From positions 1-41,505 of IMG/VR virus record IMGVR_UViG_3300023178_000098: 41,505 nucleotides of DNA; one strand, written 5' to 3'. Under the pieces are notes generated by a model, which did not search any database, was not told where the DNA came from, and was given only the letters and a program-made list of their open reading frames with translations. Made by a program: the position numbers and the translations under genes. Below, in pieces: positions 38,670 through 39,000 of this stretch (within the stretch, counting starts at the first letter, position 1; each line of letters starts with the position of its first letter). The stretch comes from a virus.

Positions 38670-38702
38670 AAAAAAGCCCCTAACATTATTAGTGCTAGGG
38701 GC
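38670..38702 (-). terminator. Intrinsic terminator of the 20-codon unit
   Basis: A 10-bp stem (GCCCCTAGCA paired with TGTTAGGGGC, one G-T pair) with a 7-nt loop, followed on the minus strand by six Ts. The T-run ends at the 5' end of tRNA-Trp, so the three downstream tRNAs depend on read-through or processing. Confidence 0.88.
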
Positions 38703-38725
38703 TCATAACGTACTTAAAAGTCACG

Positions 38726-38788
38726 TCAAGACATACCCCTACTTCCTGGAGGCCAACAAGTAATATTTGTTGTGTTAGTCTTGAACAT
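38726..38788 (-). CDS. Possible 20-residue peptide in a self-contained transcription unit
   Basis: A 20-codon ORF (start MFKTNTTNITC, end SRGMS) preceded by AGAAGGAA 7 bp before the ATG, 23 bp downstream of the estimated transcript start of a TTGACA-17-TATATT promoter, and followed 23 bp later by a strong intrinsic terminator. The peptide has one Cys, one Trp and a PPG turn. No family is known to me. The same segment could instead be a structured RNA with a fortuitous ORF, as inverted repeats CAACAA/TTGTTG and ACGT/ACGT lie within it. Confidence 0.5.
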   Translation of the reverse strand: MFKTNTTNITCWPPGSRGMS

Positions 38789-38817
38789 GTTAATATTCCT
38801 TCTTTGTTTATATTAGT

Positions 38818-38846
38818 AATATACTATACTTATTACGGCTTGTCAA
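38818..38846 (-). promoter_or_regulatory. Sigma70-type promoter of the 20-codon unit
   Basis: TTGACA at 38841-38846, 17 bp, TATATT at 38818-38823. The -35 lies in the last codons of the 55-residue zinc-ribbon gene; the start site is estimated near 38811. Confidence 0.78.
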
Positions 38847-39000
38847 CCGGTTTTTCACATCTTGCTTTAGAACCACAATGCGGGCAATGAAAAGTTGTTC
38901 GATCTATACAATACCGTTCGTCCATTGTGGCAAAAGTAAACCAGCCCTTGCAGTTAGCGCAAGTCAAATGCCAGATAATTTCTTTTACCGCTTTGAACAT
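38833..39000 (-). CDS. Small zinc-ribbon protein (55 aa)
   Basis: 55 residues starting MFKAVKEIIWHLTCANCKGW and ending CEKPVDKP. Cys14-x2-Cys17 (TCANCKG) and a second knuckle CPHCG near residue 44 form a zinc ribbon; a further Cys lies near the C-terminus. The family resembles small conserved marine-phage proteins, with no known function. There is no clear SD; a TAAATAATTATACA stretch precedes the ATG. The final codons (VDKP) contain the -35 TTGACA of the next unit. Confidence 0.72.
   Translation of the reverse strand: MFKAVKEIIWHLTCANCKGWFTFATMDERYCIDRTTFHCPHCGSKARCEKPVDKP

Follow-up and report, generated by a model that had tools for sequence, protein, structure and literature searches.

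The block at positions 38,670 to 38,846 of the window (the whole stretch of DNA analysed, 41,505 nt, IMG/VR record IMGVR_UViG_3300023178_000098) is very probably a cis-acting, ribosome-mediated transcription attenuator of a phage tRNA operon. A promoter and a short leader ORF with a Shine-Dalgarno sequence (translation of the ORF is predicted) are separated from the controlled genes by an intrinsic terminator; the regulatory codons correspond to the tRNAs that the operon supplies; and an antiterminator overlaps the 5' arm of the terminator, being free with a stalled ribosome and masked with a ribosome at the stop codon in computed folding. The parts, the overlap of terminator and antiterminator, the conservation of the block and the co-evolution of leader codons with the operon were established by sequence comparison. 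About 90 distinct homologues were found in uncultivated viral contigs, with promoter, leader ORF, terminator and, as first gene, tRNA-Trp as the common layout.

Organization of the leader unit

The unit and the operon behind it comprise the following features (basis of the assignment in brackets where applicable).

38846-38818, minus strand: sigma70-type promoter TTGACA-17-TATATT, 11/12 (promoter scan)
38801-38797, minus strand: Shine-Dalgarno sequence AAGGA, 8 nt 5' of the ATG (sequence)
38789-38778, minus strand: start-codon side of the start:stop helix, CAUGUUCAAGAC pairing with GUCUUGACGUG at 38732-38722 (fold and covariation)
38788-38726, minus strand: leader ORF, ATG to TGA, 20 codons, MFKTNTTNITCWPPGSRGMS (ORF translation and homologues)
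38758-38747, minus strand: control codons TGT TGG CCT CCA (Cys-Trp-Pro-Pro), cognate to the three downstream tRNAs (sequence and co-evolution tests)
38742-38721, minus strand: antiterminator 5' strand, just 5' of and over the stop codon, core UAGGGGU at 38741-38735 (duplex and conservation)
38704-38670, minus strand: intrinsic terminator (attenuator), 12 pairs and T-run; its 5' arm GCCCCUA is the antiterminator 3' strand
38669-38594, minus strand: tRNA-Trp(CCA), first operon gene (ARAGORN, Rfam)
38589-38513, minus strand: tRNA-Pro(UGG) (ARAGORN, Rfam)
38507-38433, minus strand: tRNA-Cys(GCA), last operon gene (ARAGORN, Rfam)

The leader peptide of the window reads MFKTNTTNIT-C-W-P-P-GSRGMS; the chance that C, W and P all occur in 19 random residues of the window's amino-acid composition is 0.004. 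Promoter-like sites numbered 30 in the scan, compared with 18.0±4.4 in shuffled sequences, and only three terminator-like sites were found in 7.5 kb, the leader terminator being the strongest (12 pairs versus 6-7). The 142-nt leader RNA is more stable than its shuffles (z -3.5, 1/200).

The near-consensus promoter, the Shine-Dalgarno sequence with its 20-codon ORF and the strong terminator with T-run had all been named in a preliminary description of this DNA and were recovered at the positions listed. Its term 'self-contained unit' holds for the anatomy and fails for a free-standing gene, since the terminator abuts tRNA-Trp (38669) at the head of the tRNA-Trp-Pro-Cys operon, the stem ending 5 nt ahead of it. 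This abutment, the match of Cys-Trp-Pro-Pro to the operon tRNAs and the antiterminator potential had been overlooked. The discrete terminated RNA of ~142 nt is expected to be the 'off' product of the unit. The sole promoter seen for the operon is the one upstream of the terminator; the next gene has a perfect promoter of its own (38423-38395), separate from the leader promoter, so that tRNA-Trp-Pro-Cys forms a separate operon.

Two neighbouring features were also observed. A 55-aa ORF at 38833-39000 (minus strand) has CxxC-type cysteine pairs, resembles a zinc ribbon, gave no Pfam match and ends inside the -35 box of the leader promoter; similar ORFs stand 5' of the tRNA-Trp promoter in contigs L253, L267 and L272. 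A 12/12 sigma70 promoter at 40174-40145 (minus strand) lies directly 5' of tRNA-Thr, with neither leader nor terminator; it heads a second tRNA operon of this phage, one that is unattenuated.

Conservation among related viral contigs

The preliminary description had proposed looking for the block in relatives, and it is strongly conserved in related uncultivated viral contigs; the source phages are tailed, with T4-like baseplate and tail-fibre gene content. For the first sample, contigs were chosen by a neighbouring metallophosphatase gene and then by two pattern scans on the stop-codon region, which gave 79 distinct leader-operon combinations in total. The promoter-leader-terminator block stands 5' of nearly every tRNA-Trp in the metallophosphatase-selected contigs. 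Every one of the 79 leaders contains an in-frame TGG, and tRNA-Trp is always first after the terminator; the underlying motif did not require Trp, and odd cases were checked by eye. A -35/-10-like site was present at most 90 nt upstream of the ORF in 80 of 89 homologous units. A terminator was found at most 110 nt upstream of 78/86 tRNA clusters headed by tRNA-Trp, versus only 3/135 clusters with other heads on the same contigs, one of these three being an undetected tRNA-Trp. The search for attenuators before other tRNA clusters of these contigs yielded none; two Thr matches look like the end of the upstream gene.

Two further samples were drawn without reference to the leader. A scan for a terminator followed by tRNA-Trp returned 19 new loci, 18 of which have a leader with TGG, diverged leaders included. 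Among 42 tRNA-Trp genes on contigs selected by a DNA ligase gene, an automatic test found a leader at 24, in one case (L299) with an ORF misassigned by the ORF-calling step, on a contig that carries an NWPLQR leader as in L011 and L012; L248 (leader LLLCWLL, operon Trp-Cys) was added by eye. Most remaining tRNA-Trp genes of this sample lie directly behind a promoter with no leader; the attenuator is therefore common, not universal.

In L253, L267, L272-L275 and L301-L303 the tRNA-Trp follows straight after a TTGACA..TATATT-like promoter with no leader or terminator, apparently as constitutive versions of the locus. At ~4431 in L226, tRNA-Trp is still preceded by the 3' half of the attenuator terminator, and a tRNA-Asn/Ser cluster stands in place of the upstream half, as would result from recombinational loss of the leader. 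A folded element of 78-92 nt lies between the attenuator terminator and tRNA-Trp at L036:7409-7499 and L023:4080-4158 and also in L018, L026, L035, L096 and L156; a long stem closes it, as many as three hairpins lie inside, and its outline is tRNA-like (z -2.6 and -3.4). It matched no Rfam family at threshold.

A nucleotide search for the block in phage isolates gave no match. The tRNA-Trp genes of four isolate records (Melnitz, Phosso, MD18 and StarPlatinum) have no such leader, and it is absent from every isolate record examined, phiM12 being covered around its metallophosphoesterase only. Scanning 84,980 bacterial and archaeal genomes with a pattern returned 0 matches, so that there is no prophage or host copy at the stringency of the pattern. 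Two other patterns produced mostly or wholly spurious loci: the new loci from TTTTTT..AAAGTTTAAGTCGG (L319-L323) were chance matches, and 11 of 14 matches to QYCIRWF had no tRNAs behind them, only L306, L308 and L310 being real.

Antiterminator and start:stop helix

In the window, UAGGGGU just 5' of the stop codon can pair with GCCCCUA in the terminator 5' arm, and the duplex of 38742-38721 with 38712-38695 has a computed energy of -19.8 kcal/mol. The equivalent pairing of the leader near its stop codon with the terminator 5' arm is found in 89/89 distinct units, with a mean of -16.0 kcal/mol. Shuffling the leader strand reduced this to -8.5, and swapping strands between loci gave -15.1±0.17, never as good as the native pairs in 5,000 tries, which indicates compensatory evolution. 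The main type is GGGGU:GCCCC, and other forms are GGGGCUU:AAGCCCC (L031), GAGGGC:GCCCUC (L214) and CCGGGGGU:ACCCCCGG (L049).

A second helix links the start and stop regions. The first base of the start codon and its partner were A/U in 65 units (AUG/U) and G/C in 16 (GUG/C), with 0 discordant and 8 units not scorable. Codon 2-3 likewise covaries with UGA/UAA stops (62 C/G, 14 T/A, 1 T/G). In folds of nascent RNA that extended no further than the terminator 5' arm, the computed probability of the antiterminator was 0.93 with a ribosome at the Trp codon, 0.02 with a ribosome at the stop codon and 0.82 with no ribosome; as the ribosome-free RNA favours the antiterminator, an untranslated leader might read through. 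TGG and the G-run lie 10-21 nt apart, which is roughly as far as a ribosome extends in the 3' direction.

Leader codons and operon tRNA content

Comparison of homologous units demonstrates that leader codons co-evolve with the tRNA content of the operon. Representative leaders and their operons are CWRR with Trp-Arg-Cys (L002), YWCPP with Trp-Pro-Tyr-Cys (L007) and RWCPE with Trp-Pro-Cys-Glu-Arg (L187). Related loci differ in step: IICWCPSQ precedes Trp-Ser-Gln-Cys-Ile in L018, whereas IICWCPPQ precedes Trp-Cys-Ile in L017; IIGWPS precedes Trp-Pro-Gly-Ser-Met-Ile in L086, whereas IICWPS precedes Trp-Pro-Cys-Ser-Ile in L172. Samples not selected on the leader supplied IISYIWCP with Trp-Tyr-Pro-Cys-Ile (L225), IICWCPI with Trp-Cys-Ile (L213), CNWC with Trp-Cys (L217) and YGWC with Trp-Gly (L214 group). 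In L261 the leader contains MMKHIQQYCIRWF, 13 codons that draw on each of the ten isotypes in the operon behind it and on no others, that operon being Trp-Ile(GAU)-Tyr-Lys-Gln-Cys-Met-Arg(ACG)-Phe-His; the chance that 13 consecutive residues are all from this set is 3.5e-8, and random 13-mers covered all ten isotypes in 0/400,000 trials. The same leader precedes similar operons in L308 and L310. A GOLLD RNA (Rfam RF02032, 185.9 bits) containing a tRNA-Ser lies at L261:2413-2872, ~0.8 kb upstream of the ten-tRNA operon.

The match was tested on leader codons W-4..W+3, a span chosen once the first set was known; they were compared with the tRNAs other than Trp in the same operon. With Pro and Cys excluded, the first set (67 distinct cases) gave 35 matches against 11.6±2.8 on permutation (0/20,000) and against 17.7±2.4 when permuted within leader-backbone groups only (0/20,000); with the later sample (n=74), 39/67 tRNAs were matched against 12.9±2.9 permuted (0/10,000). 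Pairs of nearest relatives, one operon with a given tRNA and the nearest without it, were concordant in 25 cases and discordant in 1 (p=8e-7), some loci being counted for more than one isotype. Individual isotypes with a significant match were Ile(UAU) with ATA (p=5e-7), Ser(UGA) (2e-5), Gly (3e-4), Cys (7e-4), Gln (9e-4) and Arg(ACG) (5e-3), and ATA codons accompany Ile(UAU) in 10/10. In the main set, Met (0/11), Lys (0/2) and Arg-GCG (0/7) are not mirrored; the leader Gly codon is GGT and the tRNA Gly(UCC), a near-cognate pair only; and CWPP is kept in many operons with tRNA-Trp alone.

Proposed mechanism

In attenuation, fast translation of a leader leads to termination and slow reading of control codons to read-through (PMC1183508). 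Here, RNA polymerase would start at ~38811 and a ribosome would follow it into the 20-codon leader. With charged tRNA-Trp, -Cys and -Pro plentiful, the ribosome would reach the stop codon and mask UAGGGGU, the terminator hairpin would form, and transcription would end just 5' of tRNA-Trp. If one of these tRNAs were scarce, the ribosome would stall on the Cys-Trp-Pro-Pro codons, leaving UAGGGGU free to pair with GCCCCUA; the terminator would then fail to form and tRNA-Trp-Pro-Cys would be transcribed. As the operon product is the very tRNA whose supply is read, the loop would be autoregulatory, by negative feedback. Candidate causes of depletion are phage codon demand and host nucleases, both compatible with the predicted stalling and read-through in the infected cell.

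Host defences that cleave tRNAs are countered by phage tRNAs (PMC10264068, PMC11555353). A tentative and possible reading is that the virus uses the leader to detect the destruction of host tRNAs: ribosomes would halt on a 'menu' peptide that lists the phage's own tRNAs, and substitutes would be produced as needed. The trigger would then be an anti-phage nuclease of the host, or phage takeover, depleting specific tRNAs, and the unit would act as an inducible counter-defence circuit, its specificity changing one codon at a time as its tRNA cargo evolves.

Alternative explanations

The same attenuator might instead respond to host starvation for an amino acid, Trp or Cys, and not to tRNA shortage. 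Classical attenuators do sense uncharged tRNA, and both residues are rare in the phage proteins counted (Trp 0.6%, Cys 0.4%). It is nevertheless a weaker candidate, and an unlikely one, because extra tRNA would not cure an amino-acid shortage, and the choice at isoacceptor level (ATA with Ile-UAU) points to tRNA supply as the signal.

The remaining explanations dispense with the attenuator. The preliminary description had offered a micro-peptide acting on the host or a small regulatory RNA, and neither function is supported by the comparison. The Shine-Dalgarno sequence and start codon are proper, Cys, Trp and a PPG are present and the ORF is conserved in relatives, yet a host-acting peptide is most improbable: its residues vary with the downstream tRNA set, and its C-terminus drifts, changing frame in L105, L138, L165 and L310 or stopping early in L221, while the RNA is kept. 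Start and stop codons also covary as base pairs, and it is the identity of the codons that follows the downstream tRNA genes. An RNA of ~142 nt acting in trans, independently of the tRNAs, would have its own promoter, terminator and stable fold, and attenuated leader RNAs or peptides can have trans roles (peTrpL, PMC7298713); this is very unlikely all the same, as it leaves the codon-tRNA match, the fixed place before tRNA-Trp and the antiterminator unexplained, and Rfam gave no match beyond tRNAs. Terminators between units are common, and the present one could merely insulate the tRNA operon from upstream transcription, with an incidental leader; this is scarcely credible, because an insulator placed downstream of the promoter would shut off the very operon it shields, the remaining tRNA clusters of these contigs have no such terminators, and codon co-evolution is left unaccounted for.

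Comparison with known systems

The attenuator reading places the unit beside the trpL and hisL attenuators of E. coli (PMC1183508), with which it shares a leader ORF carrying regulatory codons, an antiterminator and a terminator that exclude each other, and a decision by ribosome position. It differs from both in controlling tRNA genes instead of biosynthetic enzymes, in belonging to a phage, in leader codons for several amino acids that mirror the gene list of the operon, and in having one invariant Trp codon, not a long run for a single amino acid. Attenuation of the pheST type acts on aminoacyl-tRNA synthetase genes. There, too, a translation component is tuned whose charged tRNA is sensed, whereas the target of the phage unit is the tRNA itself, several isotypes together. 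T-box riboswitches also sense tRNA charging and control a terminator, but the phage unit has no T-box or specifier loop and its codons would be read by a ribosome; the only Rfam matches in the window and in L036, L023, L026, L129 and L156 were to tRNAs. The Rfam amino-acid leaders scored below their gathering thresholds in L036 (His_leader 24.4 vs 49, Phe_leader 17 vs 55, Thr_leader 14.4 vs 55, trpB 22.3 vs 59). The replacement role is shared with phage tRNAs that substitute for depleted host tRNAs (PMC10264068, PMC11555353); a search of the main text of PMC10264068 for a promoter or terminator was negative, and the phage unit could add a sensor that couples tRNA supply to depletion.

Attenuators as such are already known; in the open-access literature searched, no report was found of leader-peptide attenuation of tRNA operons or of attenuation in phages. 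With this unit, attenuation would reach beyond enzymes to tRNA genes and viruses, and natural sensors of a modular kind would be available for reading the supply of several tRNAs. The purpose of phage tRNAs has been debated for 50 years, the proposals being codon compensation and substitution for host tRNAs that have been depleted (PMC10264068). By listing the tRNAs under its control, a leader would tell when the phage wants each of them, which is whenever ribosomes are slow at the matching codon, and the question thereby becomes testable with reporters.
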